Source of the DNA: Oceanihabitans sp. 2_MG-2023
GTDB lineage: Bacteria > Bacteroidota > Bacteroidia > Flavobacteriales > Flavobacteriaceae
Reading direction: 5' to 3'
Length of the DNA: 64,000 nucleotides
Assembly: GCF_030547245.1 (NCBI RefSeq)
Contig: NZ_JAUOQT010000001.1
Coordinates: forward strand, 310,001 to 374,000
The position numbers and the translations under genes are program-made. Shown here piece after piece: positions 1 through 13,973 of this stretch. Numbering within the stretch: position 1 is the first letter of the stretch; each line of letters starts with the position of its first letter. Under the pieces are notes generated by a model, which saw nothing but the letters and a program-made list of their open reading frames with translations, was not told the DNA's origin and ran no database searches.

Positions 1-2012
1 TAGTTTAAAGAAGTTCTAAAGTTATCATTAAAGTAATAGTTTAATCCTATATCTAATCCATAGGTATCTACATGACCAAAGTTTAAATAGGTTAAAATGA
101 ACGAACCATCTGAACCTTCAACAACATCTCCAATTGGTTGGTCTCCAATATGTGTTACGTTATTTCCATTTGCTGCATCTGCAATATTACGCAATGGACT
201 AATAAAGTTATCGGATTGGTTATAATAAGCGTTAGTATCTATAAATAATTTATCTGATAATTTTCCTTTATACCCTATTTCGTAAGAATTAATTGTTTCT
301 ACTTCTAGCCTTCCTATTTTAGTACCATCTGTAAGTGTAAATCCTTCTCCATTTCCTAACACTAAACCTCCAAATAAGTTTCCTTTAAGATTTAAAATAG
401 ATGGAACAGCGATTCCTTTTCCGTAGGTAATTCTAAAAGTTCCGCTTTTTACTTTTTTAGTAATTGCAGCTTTAGGTATAAAATTAGAACCATATAATTC
501 ATGATTATCTATTCTTCCTCCCAACAAAAAGCCCCATCCAGAATCTGGTAATTTATACTCTAATTGTGTATAAATACCTGTTTGATCTAAATTTATTCCG
601 TCTTCATCTAAAAGATATGTACCATCAGAATCTGCCATATCTAATTGGTATTGCGCTCCTAATGTTAGATAAAATTTGTTCCAATTATTATTGTATTGCG
701 CTTCTGCATTAAAACGTCTAGACGCATCTTTAAAAAGGGCACCACGCTGTAATGCTAAACCATCTCCTTGATTAGGCCCCGTTTGAAACCATTGTTCTGT
801 AAGCGAACGATCTAGAGCCTCAGCTTCTGTAAAACCATTTTCAATAAAAGAAACATAATTTTGTGTACGTTGGTTTATTGCATAAGTATCGTCTGTTTTA
901 CTCCACGTATAGTAGGTATTAGCAAAAAAGTTTTTGGACACGAATTTTAACTGCGCAACATCTATACTCCAATCTTTAATTTGATTACGTCCTGCATTTG
1001 TGATACCTAAATTATTACTATTACTATGCCCATAATATCCTGAAAGTTCCGAGCTTTTAGTTGGTTTATAAAATAATGAAGCTCCATATTTTTGACTATC
1101 AAAATCACGATCTAGATTCAACTCTTTATACGCAGTTGTTCCTACATATACGCTATCGGAATAGTTAAACTCTTTTCCTTGAGATCTTTCAAAGTGGAAT
1201 TTATAAGCAAATTTATCATTAAGTACCTGTGCATGTCTTAATCGCATAGTAACTACATTTTGATTCCCAGCACCTACTGCAAAAGTAGTACCTTCTGAAC
1301 CTCTTGGGTTTTTAGTAATCGTACTTACTAATCCGTTATGCGCATTTGGCCCATATAATGTTCCGTTAGGTCCTAATAATATTTCAACACGTGATATATC
1401 GTCTTTGGTTACCGTAGAAAAAGATCCCATTGGCAATCCTGTTGCTATTAATGTAGATAATCTATCGTCTGTTACTTGTAAATTTTTAGAGTTAAACGCA
1501 GAGTTAAAACCTCTAATATTAATTCCTGTTCCTAAAACACCACTTCTTACAAAATCTACCCCTTTTTGCCTTGCTGCCAATTCACCAATATTAAAACTAG
1601 GAAATTCTTCAATATCTTTTGCAGTAATAACATTTACTGTAGCTGGTACATCTGTAATTTTTTGTGGTTTTTTACCTGCAGTTATAATAACTTCATCTAA
1701 AACGCTATTAGATTCGTTTAATGTCGCATTTAATTTTGTTGTGCTATTAGCCGTAACTGAAACACTTTGCGTTGCCGTTTGAAAACCAATATAAGAGATA
1801 GACACATCATGAGTACCTTCGGTTACATTTTCAATGGTAAAATTTCCATCAAAATCTGTTACACCACCCTTGTCTATACTTTGAATGTACACAGCCGCTC
1901 CTGCTAAAGGCATACCACTAGCATCTGTAATTGTTCCTGCTACGCTTCCAGTATCTTGCGCATTAATAACCAAAGAACTAATTATGGTTAGTAAGAAAAG
2001 TAGTTTTTTCAT
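1..2012 (-). CDS. TonB-dependent outer-membrane receptor, C-terminus cut by window edge
   Basis: Outer-membrane active transporter for a large or scarce substrate, powered by TonB-ExbBD. About 670 residues are in the window; the frame runs open to position 1, so the end of the barrel is missing. Residues 1-19 are a signal peptide ending in NAQ. Residues about 24-105 form a carboxypeptidase-regulatory-like domain (GTITDASGMPLAGA) typical of Bacteroidota SusC-type receptors. A plug domain follows (VRSGVLGTGINIRGF, about 157-171), then repeated barrel strands. No SusD gene is seen on this side. The start is the ATG at 2010-2012, the only one followed by a signal peptide. It is the last visible gene of the minus-strand set beginning at 7569, 159 bp below the helical-repeat gene, so it may also have its own promoter. 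The substrate cannot be read from the sequence. Confidence 0.93.
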   Translation of the reverse strand, partial: MKKLLFLLTIISSLVINAQDTGSVAGTITDASGMPLAGAAVYIQSIDKGGVTDFDGNFTIENVTEGTHDVSISYIGFQTATQSVSVTANSTTKLNATLNESNSVLDEVIITAGKKPQKITDVPATVNVITAKDIEEFPSFNIGELAARQKGVDFVRSGVLGTGINIRGFNSAFNSKNLQVTDDRLSTLIATGLPMGSFSTVTKDDISRVEILLGPNGTLYGPNAHNGLVSTITKNPRGSEGTTFAVGAGNQNVVTMRLRHAQVLNDKFAYKFHFERSQGKEFNYSDSVYVGTTAYKELNLDRDFDSQKYGASLFYKPTKSSELSGYYGHSNSNNLGITNAGRNQIKDWSIDVAQLKFVSKNFFANTYYTWSKTDDTYAINQRTQNYVSFIENGFTEAEALDRSLTEQWFQTGPNQGDGLALQRGALFKDASRRFNAEAQYNNNWNKFYLTLGAQYQLDMADSDGTYLLDEDGINLDQTGIYTQLEYKLPDSGWGFLLGGRIDNHELYGSNFIPKAAITKKVKSGTFRITYGKGIAVPSILNLKGNLFGGLVLGNGEGFTLTDGTKIGRLEVETINSYEIGYKGKLSDKLFIDTNAYYNQSDNFISPLRNIADAANGNNVTHIGDQPIGDVVEGSDGSFILTYLNFGHVDTYGLDIGLNYYFNDNFRTSLN

Positions 2013-2099
2013 AATTAAGAATATTGTTTTAAGTTAGATTATGATGGCAATCTATTGTGAAAAAGAAAATAAACAAACAACAAAAACACAAATGACAAG

Positions 2100-2110
2100 T
2101 GTGACTTTTA
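2100..2110 (-). promoter_or_regulatory. Shared 11-mer upstream of the TonB receptor
   Basis: TAAAAGTCACA on the minus strand, about 90 bp before the receptor start. The identical 11-mer occurs at 7709-7719 upstream of the symporter that opens the same gene set. This may be an operator half-site; the link rests only on repetition. Confidence 0.25.
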
Positions 2111-2171
2111 AATTAAAAATACGATTAAATCCAATATAATTTTTAAAGAAAAGGACTATTGCGGCTTAAAA

Positions 2172-3590
2172 CTAGATGTGTGACTTTAGTTTTAAAAAAG
2201 CCTCAGGTAGATTGTTTGAGAGTGTATCTATAACCTTTATCATGAGTTGTTTTTGATTTTTTGTTGGCTTAATTCCTTTAAGTGGTGCTTTAATTTCATC
2301 TAACAAACGAGAAGAATTTATTTTTCCTTCCATGTACCTAGAAAGCGATATACTCCATGAAATATTAGGAACATAATTACTTTGTTTTTGTCGCTCGCTT
2401 TCTTTTTCTATAAGATTAAATTTAGTAGAAAGCTTAAGTACTTCTTCATACTTTTCTTGTATTACCAAAACATTTATATACGATGTAAAGAAGTGATGCC
2501 AACGATGTTTAATCACCTCTTTTTTATATTTCATTAAAAACGTTTTAGCTGTAGCTTCGGCAAGTTTATTGTTTTTAAGCTCCGACAAAACACGAATTTG
2601 ATACGAACAATAACCTATCTTTTGATGATAATTATGTGTTTCTTTATACAATTCTTGATAGGTTTTTAATAAGGCAAATGCTTTTTTTGGACTATTATTT
2701 CGCAATAGTATAGCCGATAAATTATTTAAATACATGAGCGTATCATTGTTATTTTGCCTAATAGACAAATAACCATAGAATTCGGCTTCCTTAAATTCAT
2801 CTTGCTTAGAGTGCAACAAAACGCGACTCGCGTAATAATTAGAAAGAATGCGCCTAGAGTACATTTCACCTTGACTAAAATAATAATCAATCTGGTCAAA
2901 AATACTTTTTAACTTATTATTTTCGTTATAATTCGTATAAATAAAAGCAAGTAAAACAAAGGCTTGGTACCTGTTTTTACCGTCCATATTTTTATTATTA
3001 AACACATCCAGCAACCACGTTTCTAAATGCTTGGTCTCGTTATTATTTAACGTATATTGATTGGTAATTTCTGTTGTGGCAGTATATAGTTTTTCGTTAA
3101 TCTCTTTAACTTCCATATAATTCACTTTATATGTCTCTATAAAATCTGCAATTATTTGATGGTCTTTATAGCGCATTCGCACCAATAAATATGATTTATA
3201 TTCTTTGGCTAAATCGTATAAATTTTGAAAATTAAATTCAATATTCTTATAAGAAGAAATGTAATGAAGAAATTCTTTTTCTTCGCTAGATGCAATAGCA
3301 TCCGTTAGTATTTTTTGTTTAAGAGACATTAGCCACCCAATGGTTGCATCGACATCGATACTTGCTAATTTTTTTTCAACCCAATCTTTAAGGTAGGAGT
3401 ATTTTCGTTTATTAATAGAAGTATCAAACGCAATAAACTCTTCTTGAGATAACGCATTAGTTATTAATAACTGAATTATTTGAAGTTTTTCAGGATCCGT
3501 AAATTGATACCTATTTTGAAGGTACTTCGCTTCATTTGGCAGAATGGTTTTACTAAATTCAGTGAACTTCTTAAGCTTTGTTTTCATCAT
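2172..3590 (-). CDS. Cytoplasmic helical-repeat (TPR-like) protein, unknown function
   Basis: I do not recognise a named family. The 472 residues are almost wholly alpha-helical, rich in Lys, Asn, Tyr and Leu. From about residue 170 to 430 there are spaced helix pairs resembling TPRs (for example AFVLLAFIYTNYNENNKL and SYINVLVIQEKYEEVLKL). No signal peptide or membrane segment is seen, so it is probably cytoplasmic. It starts with two adjacent ATG codons (3590 or 3587). It sits 39 bp after the hydrolase and 159 bp before the TonB receptor, all on one strand, so a regulatory or scaffold role for that transport locus is possible. No enzymatic motif is visible. The gene is surely real; the function is unknown. 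Confidence 0.8.
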   Translation of the reverse strand: MMKTKLKKFTEFSKTILPNEAKYLQNRYQFTDPEKLQIIQLLITNALSQEEFIAFDTSINKRKYSYLKDWVEKKLASIDVDATIGWLMSLKQKILTDAIASSEEKEFLHYISSYKNIEFNFQNLYDLAKEYKSYLLVRMRYKDHQIIADFIETYKVNYMEVKEINEKLYTATTEITNQYTLNNNETKHLETWLLDVFNNKNMDGKNRYQAFVLLAFIYTNYNENNKLKSIFDQIDYYFSQGEMYSRRILSNYYASRVLLHSKQDEFKEAEFYGYLSIRQNNNDTLMYLNNLSAILLRNNSPKKAFALLKTYQELYKETHNYHQKIGYCSYQIRVLSELKNNKLAEATAKTFLMKYKKEVIKHRWHHFFTSYINVLVIQEKYEEVLKLSTKFNLIEKESERQKQSNYVPNISWSISLSRYMEGKINSSRLLDEIKAPLKGIKPTKNQKQLMIKVIDTLSNNLPEAFLKLKSHI

Positions 3591-3629
3591 ATACCAAATG
3601 AAATTTATATATTAAATACGGATTCCTTT

Positions 3630-4571
3630 TTAATTAGCAATAAATTGATCAAAAAGCTTATTAACTTCGGCTGCTTTTTCAAATTGCACAAAATGACCAG
3701 CATCTTCAACAAATGACACGTTTACGTTTTCTATTTTTTCGGAAGCTATTTTACCAACATCCGCTATAGTTAGTGTAGGATTTAAATAGCGATTAGGGAT
3801 AAGCATATCTTTATTTCCAAAAACAACTAATGTCTTTTGCTTTATATGTTCTAAATCGTTAAAAACAGGATCATTTAGCATGCCTGAAATGCTGTTTACA
3901 ATTGCAGTACAATGTGCATTAAAATCGGAAGCCAATTTAATTCGTTTTCGATCTTCAATCATCTTTGAAGTATCTTCTGGTAACGCATAAAAGTTTAAGG
4001 CATAGTTTTTTTCAATTTGTGCATCTGTAGTGTTTTTTACCATATCAACTGTAAAAAAGCTTTTTAGCATATTTGCTCCAGCTTCCGAAAACTGTTCTAA
4101 ACCAGCAGGAGCAACAAGAATTAATTTTTGAACATCTGTTTTATAAGTTGTAGCTAACTTAACACTTGCTTGTCCTCCCATAGAATGCCCAATAAGAATC
4201 ACATTTTTTAATTCTAATTCATCAATAAATTGGTGTAAAATTTCAGCGAAATAACTCGGTGTATAAGTTGCTTCTGGTTTTGCCGATTTACCATAACCCG
4301 GCAAATCTAAAGCAATACATGTGTATTTTTCTTTTAGCGAAGCAATGTTTTTAGACCATGCGTCCGAATTACTACTCAATCCATGCACAAACAAAACTGT
4401 TTTTTCTCCATTACCTTCTTTAATGTAGCTTATTTCGGTACTGTCTATCATTACTGTATGCGATTTAAAATCATATTGAGAAATTATTTCTTTCATAAGT
4501 TTGTCTGATTTTTGCGAGAATATAGTTGTGATAAATAAAGTAAAAACAAAGAATAACATCAATTTTTTCAT
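3630..4571 (-). CDS. Exported alpha/beta-fold hydrolase (esterase-like)
   Basis: Serine hydrolase of the alpha/beta-hydrolase fold, 313 residues. A signal peptide ends at about residue 19 (TIFSQ), so it should work in the periplasm. The oxyanion HG lies at 63-64, the nucleophile elbow GHSMGG has Ser130, and the likely acid and base are Asp255 (GNKDMLIP) and His293 (AGHFVQFE), so the triad is complete. The start ATG overlaps the stop of the upstream ligase by 4 bp, indicating translational coupling. With a TonB receptor, a symporter and a CoA ligase around it, the simplest reading is that it frees a carboxylic acid from an ester after outer-membrane uptake. The actual substrate is not evident; amide or lactone cleavage is equally possible. 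Confidence 0.9.
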   Translation of the reverse strand: MKKLMLFFVFTLFITTIFSQKSDKLMKEIISQYDFKSHTVMIDSTEISYIKEGNGEKTVLFVHGLSSNSDAWSKNIASLKEKYTCIALDLPGYGKSAKPEATYTPSYFAEILHQFIDELELKNVILIGHSMGGQASVKLATTYKTDVQKLILVAPAGLEQFSEAGANMLKSFFTVDMVKNTTDAQIEKNYALNFYALPEDTSKMIEDRKRIKLASDFNAHCTAIVNSISGMLNDPVFNDLEHIKQKTLVVFGNKDMLIPNRYLNPTLTIADVGKIASEKIENVNVSFVEDAGHFVQFEKAAEVNKLFDQFIAN

Positions 4572-6085
4572 GATTGTGATTTAACGGTATTAAAATATTT
4601 AAATAATTTTTTTCTAGACACCTTCCCTATACTTGTTAAGGGTATCTCTTCTAGAATAAAGAGGTACTTAGGATGTTTAAAAGCCACTAGGTTTGCTTTT
4701 AAACTTTCTCTAATCTCCATAACAGAAAGCTGTTTGTTTGCTGTAGTTACAAACGCTATGCCACACTCTCCCCACTTCGCATCTCTAACACTTAAGACCA
4801 CGGCTTTTTTTATATCTTTTATACGCTCTAATTGCACCTCTATTTCTTGTGGATAAATATTTTCACCTCCAGAAATATACATGTCATTTTTACGTCCTTT
4901 CATATATAAAAAACCCTCCGCATCACTATACGCAAAATCTCCTGTAAACAACCAGCCTTTTTTAATTTTACTATTTGTTTTTACCGAATTATTCCAATAG
5001 CCAGGAGTTACAATATTGCCTTTTATACAAAGTTCTCCTACCTCATTTGCTTTGACTTTGTTCCCGTTTTTATCTACGATTTTTAAATCTAAATAAAAAT
5101 TTGGCTTCCCAATCGAGTTTGGCTTAAGTTCTGCCATTTCATGATGTAGAGATGTTATACTGGGCCCAGCTTCTGTTAAACCATAACCAGGTCTGATATG
5201 AATGTTTTTTTTTGTTTTCCAAAAACGCACTAGCTCTGAAGCCACTTTCTCTCCACCAGAAATAATATATCGTAATTTCTTTAGATTGACATCTTTAAAA
5301 ACGGATGTTTTCTGCATCATTAATAACATCGTAGGTAAGGCCATAAATAAAGTGGTTTTATTAAGCTCTAAAAGGCACAGTATTTTTTCGGCATCAAACT
5401 TTTCAAGCATTCCAATATGTGCACCTTTGTGTAATAAAGGCGTAATAAAAACATTCCAACCAGATGTGTGATATGGAGGCAAGGTATTTAATGTAGAATC
5501 TCTAAACGTTATACCTAATTGCATAGAGGTGTTTAGGCTATTCCAGAAAAGCATTTTATTAGTATAAATAACACCTTTTGGATCTCCAGTAGTTCCTGAA
5601 GTATAAAAAATAAATAAAGGATTATCTTCTTTTATTGAATATGTTTTTTCTTGGGTATTATCTAAGGTATTAACTGTAGCTTGAAAATACGATTCTAATT
5701 TATTAAAAGGTATATTTTTAATATTTTGAATTGGTAATTGCGCTGCTTTATCTTGATGATTATCATTATAAATAAATAAACTTGGTGTACAGTCTACAAT
5801 TAACTTTGCTATTTGATTAATTGGTTGGCGATAATTTAAAGGAACTAGTATAACTCCCATACGTTGACAAGCTACAAAAAGCACAATATACTCTAGGCTG
5901 TGCTCGGCTAAAACAGCTATTCTATCTCCTTCTTCTAAATCTAATTCTATTAATTTATTAATTAACCTATTGGCATACCTATGCAAATCCTTATACGAGT
6001 AACTTTTATTTGCATCGTAGGATGTTATAGCAATTTTTTCTGGGGTATAATCGGCCCATTTGGCTGTCCAATCTAATGTGTCCAC
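4568..6085 (-). CDS. AMP-forming acyl-CoA synthetase
   Basis: ANL-superfamily ligase that turns a carboxylic acid, ATP and CoA into acyl-CoA, AMP and PPi in the cytoplasm. The 505 residues are a normal length. The phosphate-binding loop YTSGTTGDPKG is at 161-171, PGYGLTEAGP is at about 298, the hinge and ribose region TGDFAYSDAEG through GRKNDMYISGGENIYP is at about 375-410, and the C-terminal catalytic Lys lies in GKVSRKK. The start is GTG at 6083-6085, inside the last codons of the symporter (13-bp overlap), and the end overlaps the hydrolase by 4 bp. It should activate whatever the symporter imports. Medium- or long-chain fatty acid and aryl or crotonobetaine-type substrates are all possible; sequence alone does not decide. 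Confidence 0.92.
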   Translation of the reverse strand: MDTLDWTAKWADYTPEKIAITSYDANKSYSYKDLHRYANRLINKLIELDLEEGDRIAVLAEHSLEYIVLFVACQRMGVILVPLNYRQPINQIAKLIVDCTPSLFIYNDNHQDKAAQLPIQNIKNIPFNKLESYFQATVNTLDNTQEKTYSIKEDNPLFIFYTSGTTGDPKGVIYTNKMLFWNSLNTSMQLGITFRDSTLNTLPPYHTSGWNVFITPLLHKGAHIGMLEKFDAEKILCLLELNKTTLFMALPTMLLMMQKTSVFKDVNLKKLRYIISGGEKVASELVRFWKTKKNIHIRPGYGLTEAGPSITSLHHEMAELKPNSIGKPNFYLDLKIVDKNGNKVKANEVGELCIKGNIVTPGYWNNSVKTNSKIKKGWLFTGDFAYSDAEGFLYMKGRKNDMYISGGENIYPQEIEVQLERIKDIKKAVVLSVRDAKWGECGIAFVTTANKQLSVMEIRESLKANLVAFKHPKYLFILEEIPLTSIGKVSRKKLFKYFNTVKSQS

Positions 6086-7569
6086 TTTTTATTTTTTAAA
6101 TCTAATTTATAAAATATATAACCTACTAATACAGAAACTACAATACCAATTGCAGCAGAAACACCTGGGTTATTTACCGGCTCTTGCATGTATGGAGTAA
6201 TTCTTCCGTAGTAAATACCAAAATGAACAACAATTGCTGTTATACTAGCAATAAAAACAGATCTAGTAGAAACGTTATTTAAAAATGTTCCAAAAAGAAC
6301 TGGAACAAATGCAGCAGCAAAGTATGCATACACACCATTTTGAGCAAAAATTGCCACACTTACATTTGGGTTTTTAATTTGTTGCCAACTAAGCAAAAAG
6401 CTTACAACACCAAGAACAATAATAACTACTTTATTAATAGAAATTGTTTTATCGGTAAACCTATTTTTAAACAAAGGGTTAATAATATCTGAAGTAATTG
6501 TTATAGATAAAGATTGTATTAAACTTTCTAAAGTAGATAGTCCTGCAGAAATTAAACCTACAACAATAACTAGCCCAACACCTATGGAAAACTTGGTAAC
6601 TACATAGGTTGGTATAATTTCGTCCATTCTAAGTTTTTCTCCATTAACCATAAAATCTGGAAAACTAATTCTTGCATACAAACCTACCACAACCACTAAA
6701 AAGAAAACAATCATAAAAGCAATACCACTAAACAGATAGCTATTAATCTTACTAGCATCTTTTAATAATAAAGATTTTGTTATGATGTGTGGCTGACAAA
6801 CAACAGCAACCCCTATAACGATTTGCGTTGCAATGATTTCAAAATAATCTCGAAAAAGAAAACTGGAAGCGTTTGTTGGTTTTGTTAAATTTGGATCAAT
6901 AGTATCTAATTTGTTAAAAAATCCAGTAATACCATCCGAGAAATATTCAGAACCAGAACTAATCAAAATAATCGCAACTATAAACATAATTATTGCCTGT
7001 ATGGTATTGGTGTATACCATAGAATTAGCTCCACCATACATCATATACCCAAAAACAAACACGGTAATACCTAAAAGAACATAAAAAGGATCTGCATTTA
7101 ATGATTTGGAAATAACCTGAGTAAGCCCAACATTAATAAGAACAATAAAAGTAATAAGTAAGAGCGCAATAATGCCAAAGAAAAATGCATAGTTTTTACT
7201 TTTATAACGTTTACCAATCCATTGTGCCATCGTTGTAGCTTTTACTGCATTACCTTGTTTAACAAATCCTTTTGTAAACACAATTAGAGAAACAAAAGCA
7301 GCAATTGGTAGTACTACTGCAAAAGAAATCACACCGGAAAGACCATAGAGAGCTATAAATCCTGGATTAATAATAAAAGTAGCAGCACTTGTCATTGAAG
7401 CTGCCAAAGATAGACCAACAACCCAAGAAGGGAAGCCAATATTACCTACAGCATAATCTTTAATACTTGTATTTTTCCTTGCACCTCGTACAACGAAAAA
7501 CAATATTACAGCAGCATACACTGCTAATAAAATCCACATATAGGTCACTAACTTATCTGATGCTATCAT
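6073..7569 (-). CDS. Sodium:solute symporter (SSS family)
   Basis: Inner-membrane secondary transporter of the sodium/solute symporter family (relatives include PutP, PanF and acetate permease ActP), 498 residues with about 13 hydrophobic segments. The family region around residues 30-65 (DYAVGNIGFPSW, then AASMTSAATFI) is the conserved start of the sodium-coupled core. The C-terminal tail is short and Lys-rich. It is the first gene of the minus-strand set and overlaps the acyl-CoA synthetase by 13 bp, so its cargo is probably a carboxylate passed straight to CoA activation. Start ATG is at 7567-7569. The substrate is inferred only from context. Confidence 0.92.
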   Translation of the reverse strand: MIASDKLVTYMWILLAVYAAVILFFVVRGARKNTSIKDYAVGNIGFPSWVVGLSLAASMTSAATFIINPGFIALYGLSGVISFAVVLPIAAFVSLIVFTKGFVKQGNAVKATTMAQWIGKRYKSKNYAFFFGIIALLLITFIVLINVGLTQVISKSLNADPFYVLLGITVFVFGYMMYGGANSMVYTNTIQAIIMFIVAIILISSGSEYFSDGITGFFNKLDTIDPNLTKPTNASSFLFRDYFEIIATQIVIGVAVVCQPHIITKSLLLKDASKINSYLFSGIAFMIVFFLVVVVGLYARISFPDFMVNGEKLRMDEIIPTYVVTKFSIGVGLVIVVGLISAGLSTLESLIQSLSITITSDIINPLFKNRFTDKTISINKVVIIVLGVVSFLLSWQQIKNPNVSVAIFAQNGVYAYFAAAFVPVLFGTFLNNVSTRSVFIASITAIVVHFGIYYGRITPYMQEPVNNPGVSAAIGIVVSVLVGYIFYKLDLKNKKWTH

Positions 7570-7644
7570 TTATATTTTTGTCTTTAAAAACAAATAACAA
7601 ACTTTATATTATTTTGATTTTAAATATTTATCTTAATAAAGGTA

Positions 7645-7719
7645 TGACTTTTACAAATTAAAACACAAAAATAATCAAACACATTGTTTTATTAGTAAAA
7701 ACAGATTATGTGACTTTTA
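7645..7719 (-). promoter_or_regulatory. Repeated GTAAAAGTCA sites upstream of the symporter
   Basis: The 10-mer GTAAAAGTCA (minus strand) occurs at 7645-7654 and again at 7711-7720, both upstream of the symporter start. The second copy extends to the 11-mer also found at 2100-2110. A possible minus-strand -7 box, TATTTTTG, lies at 7666-7673 between the copies, but I find no matching -33 TTG. Candidate regulator-binding sites, by repetition only. Confidence 0.25.
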
Positions 7720-7788: not shown

Positions 7789-7821
7789 AAAACACCTTTA
7801 CTTAAAAAGTAAAGGTGTTTT
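7789..7821 (-). terminator. Rho-independent terminator after rpmA
   Basis: Perfect 15-bp stem (7789-7803 with 7807-7821) around a 3-nt loop. On the minus strand it is followed by a run of T. It lies 23 bp past the rpmA stop. Confidence 0.85.
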
Positions 7822-8146: not shown

Positions 8147-8803
8147 TTAAGCTTTACCACCATCTAATTCATCTTGCCATTTCTTTAACTCATCCCACTT
8201 ACCATCAGCAGCCATTTGAGCTTGCGCTGGCCAAGTATCTGTTACGTGGTTACCACGAACATCTGCAATGATTTCAGAAATTTTTGCTGCATCCGTTTTA
8301 GCTAATTCAGCAAAAGTTGCAATTCCTGCTTCTACTAAAGTAGATGCAATTTTTGGTCCAATACCTTCAACTTTCTTTAAATCATCAGCTTTACCTGTTG
8401 CTTTTTTAGCAGCTGGTTTTGCTTTAACTTCTGTTTTTGGAGCAGCTTTTTTAGCTGGAGCAGCTTTTTCAGCCTTAGCTGGTTTAGCTCCTGAAGCTAC
8501 AATGCTTTCAATTACGATTTCAGATAAAGCTTGTCTGTGTCCATTTTTAACACGGTAACCTTTTCTTCTTTTCTTTTTGAAAACAATAACTTTATCACCT
8601 TGAAGGTGCTTTAAGACTTTTGCACTTACTTGTGCTCCGCCTATAGCTGGGGCGCCTACAGTTACATTGCTACCATCTGCAATTAAAAGAACATTGTCGA
8701 AAGATATACTCTTTCCTTCTTCTGTTGCTAAACGGTTAACAAAAACTTTTTGGTCTTTTTCAACTTTAAATTGATGCCCTGCTATCTCTACAATTGCGTA
8801 CAT
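8147..8803 (-). CDS. rplU: 50S ribosomal protein L21 with helix-hairpin-helix C-terminal extension
   Basis: Residues 1 to about 103 are a complete bL21 (MYAIVEIAGHQFKVEKDQ, then KKRRKGYRVKNGHRQ). Ordinary L21 stops there; this one has 218 residues. Residues about 106-140 are an Ala/Lys/Pro linker. Residues about 141-200 form a helix-hairpin-helix domain (LKKVEGIGPKIASTL) of the kind that contacts nucleic acid, and the end is acidic (KKWQDELDGGKA). Such tails are, from memory, common in Flavobacteriia L21, so this is probably lineage-typical rather than a local fusion. There is a clean promoter at 8866-8895, and rpmA follows in the same operon. The role of the tail is unknown. Confidence 0.96.
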   Translation of the reverse strand: MYAIVEIAGHQFKVEKDQKVFVNRLATEEGKSISFDNVLLIADGSNVTVGAPAIGGAQVSAKVLKHLQGDKVIVFKKKRRKGYRVKNGHRQALSEIVIESIVASGAKPAKAEKAAPAKKAAPKTEVKAKPAAKKATGKADDLKKVEGIGPKIASTLVEAGIATFAELAKTDAAKISEIIADVRGNHVTDTWPAQAQMAADGKWDELKKWQDELDGGKA

Positions 8804-13457: not shown

Positions 13458-13973
13458 ATGAAACAAATAAAAAAAATATTAGTTATTGCCGTAATTGCAA
13501 TAATTACTTTTAGCTGTAAAAAAGAGACTAAAGCAGAAGTAGTAACGGTTGAAACAGAAACTGCGGTTAAAACTACAAAAGCAGCCTTAGACCCAAATGC
13601 AACATATGCAAAAGCTGAATTTACCATTGAAGGTATGACTTGTGCCATTGGTTGTGCAAGAACTATTGAAAAGAAATTAGCTAAAATGGAAGGCGTAAAA
13701 TCTGCAAAAGTAGATTACGACAAAAAACTAGCAATGGTGGAGTACGATAATGCTAAAGTAACTACAACTTCTCTAGAAGAAACGGTATCTAAAGTTGGTG
13801 ACACTTACACTGTTAAAGAAATGAAAACTGTAGAATCGTTTACTGCTAAAAAGGCATGTAGTGCAGATTGCAAAAAAGCATGTTGTGCTAAAGAAGGCGT
13901 GTCTTCAGATAAGAAAATGGCTTGTGCTGCAGATTGCAAAGAAGCATGTTGTGCCGATAAGACTAAAGCTTAA
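13458..13973 (+). CDS. Heavy-metal-associated (HMA) lipoprotein with Cys-rich tail
   Basis: 171 residues. A lipoprotein signal ends at Cys20 (TFSC). Residues about 52-122 form a ferredoxin-like HMA fold, but the metal loop is GMTCAIGCA, with Cys62 and Cys66 separated by three residues instead of the usual two. The last 45 residues carry two copies of a Cys motif (ACSADCKKACCA and ACAADCKEACCA), eight cysteines in all, which could bind several soft metal ions. It is probably anchored in the envelope and binds Cu, Zn or a similar ion. No transporter is adjacent; the RND/P-type pump cluster is about 23 kb away. A terminator follows at once. HMA membership is well supported; metal and role are open. 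Confidence 0.88.
   Translation: MKQIKKILVIAVIAIITFSCKKETKAEVVTVETETAVKTTKAALDPNATYAKAEFTIEGMTCAIGCARTIEKKLAKMEGVKSAKVDYDKKLAMVEYDNAKVTTTSLEETVSKVGDTYTVKEMKTVESFTAKKACSADCKKACCAKEGVSSDKKMACAADCKEACCADKTKA

Follow-up and report, generated by a model that had tools for sequence, protein, structure and literature searches.

In this study we analysed a 64,000-nucleotide stretch of the Oceanihabitans sp. 2_MG-2023 genome (contig NZ_JAUOQT010000001.1, positions 310,001 to 374,000, or G000:C1:310001-374000 in our numbering; hereafter the window). At its left end lies part of a seven-gene operon that is likely to serve the uptake and catabolism of (R)-3-hydroxybutyrate (3HB) oligo-esters, the soluble breakdown products of polyhydroxybutyrate (PHB). 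The original prediction, made from the letters of the window, had read here five open reading frames (ORFs), all on the minus strand: a sodium:solute symporter, an AMP-forming ligase, a hydrolase (H1), a helical-repeat protein (HEL) and a TonB receptor. Positions, strand and the overlaps of 13 bp (symporter and ligase) and 4 bp (ligase and H1) agree with the ORF list, and the family calls were borne out (SSF PF00474, PF00501 with PF13193, Abhydrolase PF00561, Plug PF07715 with CarboxypepD_reg). The number of genes, however, was too low. The neighbouring stretch on the receptor side (L003) was read too, completing the operon beyond the window edge, and adds a second hydrolase (H2) and a 3-hydroxybutyrate dehydrogenase (BDH) of the short-chain dehydrogenase/reductase (SDR) family (Table 1). 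The count of five and the reported lack of a beta-oxidation gene thus arose partly because the window ends within the operon; an oxidation gene is present just outside it. Beyond BDH the next ORF of at least 100 aa sits on the opposite strand, and on the other side the 275-bp gap between rpmA and the symporter contains a hairpin terminator that is the likely upstream border of the presumably co-transcribed genes. Scans of the window against Rfam (gathering threshold) and for tRNAs gave no matches.

Table 1. Features of the operon and its regulatory regions. Positions are window coordinates, or contig coordinates where preceded by G000:C1.
Feature	Position	Strand	Remarks
Sodium:solute symporter (SSF)	6073..7569	-	first gene; PF00474
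AMP-forming acyl-CoA ligase	4568..6085	-	GTG start; PF00501 + PF13193
H1, exported alpha/beta hydrolase	3630..4571	-	PF00561
HEL, all-helical protein like tetratricopeptide repeat (TPR) proteins	2172..3590	-	no named family
TonB receptor	1..2012	-	cut by window edge; whole ORF 831 aa, G000:C1:309517-312012
H2, second alpha/beta hydrolase	G000:C1:308723-309505	-	260 aa; 11 bp past receptor
BDH, 3-hydroxybutyrate dehydrogenase (SDR)	G000:C1:307960-308730	-	256 aa; overlaps H2 by 8 bp
Hairpin terminator between rpmA and symporter	7789..7821	-	15 pairs then T run; palindromic, scan output is the + strand reading
Box 1, upstream of symporter	7709..7717	-	AAAGTCACA
Box 2, upstream of symporter	7643..7651	-	AAAGTCATA; 66 bp from box 1
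Box 3, inside last codons of HEL gene	2179..2187	-	Lys-Ser-His
Box 4, between HEL gene and receptor	2100..2108	-	
Promoter-like element	2047..2054	-	TAGATTGC; 42 bp before receptor start here

Conservation of the seven-gene unit

A search for the ligase in 99 genomes (this one and 98 relatives) returned orthologues at 65-85% identity in seven relatives and at 42-43% in two more; one of six congeners lacks it. We inspected the neighbourhoods of those nine and of two genomes with ligases near 30% identity. The same seven genes stand in the same order in six of the seven close relatives (ligase at least 65% identical), four of them with the same surroundings and two with other flanks, and the seventh (L032) is a 3-kb contig. 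Around the four ligases at 29-43% identity the seven-gene order is absent: one neighbourhood (L036) is rearranged and has a FabG-like SDR, and in three the ligase stands alone.

A broader set of loci was obtained by scanning our genome collection with a receptor profile, taking the best 80 of 156 relatives, which with this locus makes 81. The receptor is present in all 81 loci, the ligase, the hydrolase and an SDR in 77 each, the symporter in 76 and HEL in 71. BDH is found in 58, and 54 of these keep the full seven-gene order; the other four are one truncated contig, two loci that lack H2 and one in which no H1 was called. In the last of these (L068) there is no intact H1 ORF between ligase and HEL but a gap is left, possibly by a frameshift in this metagenome-assembled genome (MAG). 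A neighbourhood search in relatives had been set as a check on the prediction, and by these counts the unit is conserved, to a degree that exceeds chance. The flanking genes (56 scorable per side) fall into 30 families on the left and 21 on the right, and because the flanks are so varied the seven-gene unit is conserved beyond its neighbourhood.

We call the BDH architecture type A and the FabG architecture type B. The usual order in type B is FabG-KAS-symporter-ligase-H1-HEL-receptor (KAS, ketoacyl synthase), with no BDH and no H2, and its hosts are Fulvivirga, Marivirga, Reichenbachiella, Marinoscillum and similar genomes. The Fulvivirga-group cluster was also found under the titles Thalassovita (L106) and Rickettsiales MAG (L116), which are probably misnamed or mixed bins.

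Enzymes and transporters of the proposed 3-hydroxybutyrate route

BDH scores 336 bits against the 3-hydroxybutyrate dehydrogenase model TIGR01963 (cut-off 307.05) and is the sole SDR of this genome above that cut-off; its best PDB matches, with 1wmb among those aligned, are 3-hydroxybutyrate dehydrogenases. Nine catalytic and free-acid-binding positions are invariant in 55 of the 58 BDH proteins, the 55 being those that passed the length filter. In P. fragi numbering we take these to be the catalytic Asn-Ser-Tyr-Lys and the substrate-carboxylate residues Gln94, His144, Lys152, Gln196 and Trp257. In 21 FabG-type proteins four of the five substrate positions are absent throughout and the fifth is absent in at least 20. 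An SDR of this type, without the free-acid residues, suggests that in type B oxidation may follow activation to the CoA ester.

Genes for the subsequent steps are at hand. The gene for CoA-transferase subunit A lies directly 3' of BDH in 9 of the 58 loci, and the one subunit A that was checked passes TIGR02429. In L090, L091 and L094 opposite-strand genes of about 600 aa lie between subunits A and B after BDH, as if inserted. The present genome has one CoA-transferase pair (PF01144), elsewhere than the cluster, and three thiolases above cut-off, so that the path from 3-hydroxybutyrate to acetyl-CoA is complete on paper. In its curated score, its signature residues and its CoA-transferase, adjoining or elsewhere in the genome, the locus resembles the known D-3-hydroxybutyrate dehydrogenase pathway (BDH, 3-oxoacid CoA-transferase, thiolase). 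It differs in that this chemistry is coupled here to a TonB receptor, an exported esterase and a symporter, in a strain without PHB synthase.

The two hydrolases seem to act in different compartments. By a crude hydrophobicity test the N-terminus is signal-like in 69 of 72 H1 proteins and in 2 of 64 H2 proteins, which fits a periplasmic and a cytoplasmic esterase. The Ser130/Asp255/His293 triad and signal peptide first read in H1 both stand up: the triad is invariant in 41 aligned orthologues and the N-terminus of H1 is signal-like. In H2, S93, H239 and three Asp are invariant in 56 sequences, the catalytic Asp being one of the three candidates. The AlphaFold model of H1 has a predicted local distance difference test (pLDDT) value of 94.4. 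The best PDB match of the H1 profile is the PHB depolymerase 8ynv (E 1.7e-33), a weak lead, as the match spans residues 36-161 only and H1 in its structure ties with many generic hydrolases. We propose H1 as a putative periplasmic 3HB-oligomer esterase.

The ligase is certain only to the AMP-forming superfamily. It scores 264 bits against PF00501; it matched 109 NCBIfam models and is below cut-off in the 25 of them that were shown. It would activate 3-hydroxybutyrate and/or acetoacetate. The symporter reaches 119.5 bits against PF00474 (gathering threshold 22.8) and lies under the cut-off of all five matched NCBIfam models, such as PanF, PutP and MctC; from its context it may be the inner-membrane importer of 3-hydroxybutyrate. 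The receptor combines Plug PF07715 with a CarboxypepD_reg-like domain (PF13715), and we propose oligo-3HB as its probable cargo.

In its general plan, with TonB receptor, exported hydrolase, inner-membrane transporter and cytoplasmic enzymes in one locus, the cluster recalls the SusCD polysaccharide utilization loci of Bacteroidota. Unlike these it has neither SusD nor a glycosidase among its seven genes, as had been predicted, and its substrate would be a polyester and not a glycan. Against the SusC model TIGR04056 the receptor scores 106 bits (cut-off 368.25), and none of the seven genes matched SusD in the family scans, no separate SusD search having been made. A SusCD-type locus was therefore rejected.

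From these parts the following route can be drawn. The TonB receptor would import 3HB oligomers, which H1 would cleave in the periplasm; the sodium symporter would bring 3-hydroxybutyrate or short oligomers into the cytoplasm, where H2 would complete the cleavage. BDH would then convert 3-hydroxybutyrate to acetoacetate, the AMP-forming ligase and/or the CoA-transferase would yield acetoacetyl-CoA, and thiolases would release acetyl-CoA. The uptake-hydrolysis-activation route of the original prediction thus survives in outline, with receptor, exported esterase, symporter and cytoplasmic activation kept together as one conserved unit; what did not survive is a route of five genes lacking an oxidation step.

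Type B shows some features of its own. Sixteen KAS proteins, mostly from type B (L097 12560-13549 and 15 others), are FabH-like, stand beside the FabG gene and keep the active-site Cys. At the positions that we take to be the FabH catalytic His and Asn they mostly have Thr and Tyr (consensus, by eye), and they may be non-condensing or thiolytic enzymes acting on acetoacetyl-CoA. In three MAGs titled Lutibacter or Flavobacteriaceae a thiolase-family protein lies between symporter and KAS (L102 14836-16050, L103 14867-16048, L118 12548-13729). The L103 protein is slightly under the PRK07516 cut-off and the other two were assigned by eye; all three are compatible with acetoacetyl-CoA cleavage.

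PHB depolymerases and competing readings of the cargo

A gene for an extracellular PHB depolymerase (scl-PHA type) occurs in the same stretch as the cluster in 7 of the 80 relatives. It adjoins the receptor in L105 and L111, immediately precedes the cluster in L112 and L116, and is found at the far cluster end in L102, L103 and L118. Five of these depolymerases score 264-320 bits against e_dPHAscl_type1 (NF050058, cut-off 150), two with a Por secretion tail, and the remaining two were found with a profile built from the tested five. As the loci were retrieved by receptor only, the presence of a depolymerase was not selected for. Together with BDH and the adjoining CoA-transferase, these genes point to 3-hydroxybutyrate oligo-esters as the cargo, which had been left as an unknown acid or ester. 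Among 50 genomes checked, 18 lack the BDH architecture, and 12 of these have a depolymerase above cut-off, ten at 264-324 bits and two weak.

Several results weigh against PHB oligomers as the cargo. None of the 32 type-A genomes checked has a type-1 depolymerase above cut-off; there is none in the present genome, where the best match to NF050058 is 36 bits, and none of the other 57 stretches with BDH carries one. A search for type-2 depolymerases stayed silent in its controls and so carries no weight here. Among 397 family genomes the receptor occurs in 23 and a depolymerase above cut-off in 29 (all but one below 180 bits), and both together in none. By arithmetic an overlap of 1.7 is expected from 23 and 29 genomes, against which zero is not notable; from 23 and 62 genomes (depolymerase at E 1e-30) 3.6 is expected, and the observed zero is mildly notable. 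The apparent tie of type A to PHB itself has as its basis the monomer enzyme together with homology to type B. In addition, H1 and H2 are above no NCBIfam cut-off among the models shown, NF050089 matching both in part only (101 and 98 bits, cut-off 300), and in fold H1 is closest to generic esterases, dehalogenases and C-C hydrolases, PhaZ of B. thuringiensis being one of the ties. The role of the ligase also overlaps that of the CoA-transferase, and type A keeps both.

These points bear most on an alternative in which the cargo is free 3-hydroxybutyrate or acetoacetate together with a different ester that contains 3HB, such as acylated small molecules or mixed hydroxyalkanoate esters, instead of PHB oligomers. 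The missing type-1 depolymerases of the type-A genomes would be expected then, the receptor ligand is a putative one, and the ligase could act on longer 3-hydroxyacids. On the other hand, relatives of the receptor, symporter and ligase share a stretch with PHB depolymerases in the seven loci named above, and the ten strong depolymerases among the 18 non-type-A genomes speak against it as well. We consider this alternative rather unlikely. Still less probable is the open version of the original prediction, a route for unrelated acids or esters (fatty, aromatic or phenolic) in which BDH is incidental. The best PDB matches of the ligase do include feruloyl-CoA synthetase and fatty-acyl-CoA synthetases, and the hydrolase folds are generic; but BDH recurs in 58 of 81 loci and here overlaps H2, type B puts a FabG-like reductase in its place and so keeps to 3-hydroxyacyl chemistry, and CoA-transferase and depolymerase genes are neighbours. 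Mobilisation of the cell's own PHB is nearly refuted: 3-hydroxybutyrate dehydrogenase and CoA-transferase serve storage turnover in other bacteria, but PhaC (PF07167) is absent from this genome in a search that was positive in a Caulobacter control, and a TonB receptor, an exported hydrolase and a symporter would be senseless for an internal polymer.

With PHB oligomers as the favoured cargo, we infer that type A is an oligomer scavenger and type B often a degrader. Having neither PhaC nor a type-1 depolymerase above cut-off, the present strain probably scavenges oligomers freed by others. The proposed route shares the logic of extracellular PHB degradation systems (e_dPHAscl depolymerase, 3HB-oligomer hydrolase, BDH), in which polymer is converted to oligomers, monomer and acetoacetate, as given in PMC5877338. 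The depolymerase that shares the stretch in seven relatives adds to the likeness; the difference is an active outer-membrane importer, which is added here, and the lack of the type-1 enzyme in the type-A genomes checked.

The uptake of PHB fragments by Gram-negative cells seems to be poorly described. We found no description of a TonB receptor or utilization locus for PHB or 3HB oligomers in the literature searched, which was mostly without subscription papers and preprints, nor in passages of PMC13372988, PMC5877338 and PMC10304962. The 2026 review PMC13372988 refers to community members living on released oligomers, and term counts of its main text gave zero occurrences of 'transporter' and 'outer membrane'. 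The pathway is made of known parts in a combination for which no description was found. If the proposed route is right, the locus would fill the missing uptake step for PHB fragments and might serve as a marker that separates oligomer scavengers from true depolymerisers in marine biodegradation surveys. Receptor, esterase and symporter would also be a set ready for engineering polyester uptake.

The helical-repeat protein and the AAAGTC boxes

HEL had been given no role. We found it to be tied strictly to the receptor: of 397 family genomes 23 have HEL, in one copy each, and precisely these 23 have the receptor, so that HEL is an obligate partner of the receptor. The window member has no Pfam or NCBIfam match at E<=0.001, TPR_10 is touched at E<=1 by 28 of 50 members, and no helix-turn-helix family is above cut-off; among the 25 families listed, the only such signal is a weak winged-helix match, seen in 2 of 50 members. 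A signal-like N-terminus was found in none of 71 HEL proteins by the crude hydrophobicity test. The AlphaFold model (pLDDT 91.7) is all-helical with 25 helices. Its closest folds in VIA-align are Rap/RRNPP proteins (Z 17-18, 296-311 residues, root-mean-square deviation 4.3-5.8), little above LGN (Z 16.7) and followed by MalT domain III (14.5); helical repeats score high generally, and Foldseek gave no match under E 0.001. HEL resembles the TPR sensors of the RRNPP/Rap group and MalT domain III in its TPR-like superhelix, about 300 residues of which superpose. It differs from them in belonging to no sequence family, in lacking a recognised DNA-binding domain and in an extra helical part of about 120 N-terminal residues, barely covered by the fold search. 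This part is basic and conserved, and Lys61-Arg62-Lys63-Tyr64 is invariant in 50 aligned members.

A short sequence box recurs in the same loci. It was first spotted by eye in type-A gaps, and the control with other genes came later; the 6-mer ranking in type B was unbiased. Locus box counts and the ranking were compared with shuffles that preserve single-base composition only. Of the type-A loci, 47 of 57 have AAGTCRYA ahead of the symporter (1.0 in shuffles) and 32 of 58 have it ahead of the receptor (0.34). Symporter boxes come in pairs, and each of the 15 successive pairs counted is spaced by 65-67 bp. The box embedded in the end of the HEL gene is read in frame as AAG-TCR-YAY: in 56 type-A HEL genes with Lys-Ser-His/Tyr, AAG is used in 55 (background 0.284), TCR in 46 (0.266) and the full box in 45, codon p-values being overstated as related loci are not independent. 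Of the 26 loci with both this box and the intergenic one, 25 have them 77-80 bp apart. In the type-B promoters AAAGTC ranks first (12 of 13 loci versus 1.7 in shuffles), and the exact type-A word AAGTCRYA occurs in only 5 of 13. As a single word the box is not rare: a dinucleotide-preserving scan of the window for AAAGTCRYA gave 7 matches versus 3.4 expected, four of them being boxes 1-4.

The original prediction had been made to depend on the receptor not being transcribed independently. Here the outcome may be divided: the receptor has its own promoter-like region, and it carries the same box as the symporter, so that the two look co-regulated. In 30 of 58 loci the element TAGATTGC precedes the receptor (0.02 in shuffles), the word having been picked after viewing the alignment. 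The Bacteroidetes -7 consensus TAnnTTTG was tried and rejected as the promoter element: it occurs before the symporter in 17 of 55 gaps (shuffle mean 11.8, maximum 19, not significant) and before the receptor in 2 of 54 (shuffle mean 6.4).

The boxes follow HEL. With the window locus excluded, 53 of 70 HEL loci (41 of 57 type A, 12 of 13 type B) have AAAGTC ahead of cluster genes, and none of nine HEL-less loci does. Upstream of cluster genes versus other genes there are 3.18 versus 0.24 sites per kb in type A, 3.05 versus 0.86 in type B and 0 versus 0 in HEL-less loci, and this zero background weakens the contrast somewhat. Ancestry confounds it too, as the HEL-less loci come from other, mostly metagenomic lineages. 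All nine untruncated HEL-less loci have a regulator gene in or at the cluster, four a TetR gene (above Pfam cut-off) and five a MarR/GbsR-like winged-helix gene, of which one reaches the HTH_27 and HTH_24 cut-offs, one that of HTH_24, and three are weak matches. When GbsR-like and TetR profiles, two families, were run over all loci, no strong match was found in any HEL-bearing locus; weak TetR matches (4e-5 to 2e-4) in L089, L054, L055 and L077 lie off the clusters.

Boxes that occur only with HEL, and regulator genes in the loci without it, suggest that HEL is probably a regulator, which is the simplest account of this pattern. That HEL might be a sensor and regulator acting through the AAAGTC boxes before symporter and receptor has, in our view, about an even chance. 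A further step, somewhat more doubtful, would be that HEL represents a new class of one-component regulators which senses an intermediate of polyester uptake, reads the paired boxes and controls TonB-dependent polyester loci. Loci of this putative polyester type are spread over Bacteroidota, and the HEL-less form is found in MAGs labelled KSB1 and Ignavibacteria.

Alternatively, HEL might have no regulatory role and serve in the cytoplasm as a TPR scaffold or chaperone, either of the receptor or of the enzymes of the pathway, with an unlinked transcription factor reading the boxes. TPR proteins frequently act as scaffolds, a physical partner of the receptor could equally well be paired with it strictly, and the lack of a helix-turn-helix family above cut-off would be no surprise. 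AAAGTC is moreover absent from all 60 upstream regions of other genes in HEL-less loci, a zero that base composition may partly explain. However, the scaffold leaves aside that the boxes track HEL and that every untruncated HEL-less locus has a MarR/GbsR-like or TetR gene, and we hold it to be a serious possibility that falls a little short of even. The regulator idea is the most novel part of our findings, and the pairing of HEL and receptor together with a conserved DNA box makes HEL a directly testable new regulator candidate.

Two other genes of the window were noted by eye. Positions 8147-8803 encode ribosomal protein L21 in an ORF of 218 aa, which has a linker rich in Ala and Lys and, towards its C-terminus, a helix-hairpin-helix-like stretch; positions 13458-13973, with no relation to the operon, encode a small heavy-metal-associated-domain-like protein with a Cys-rich C-terminus.

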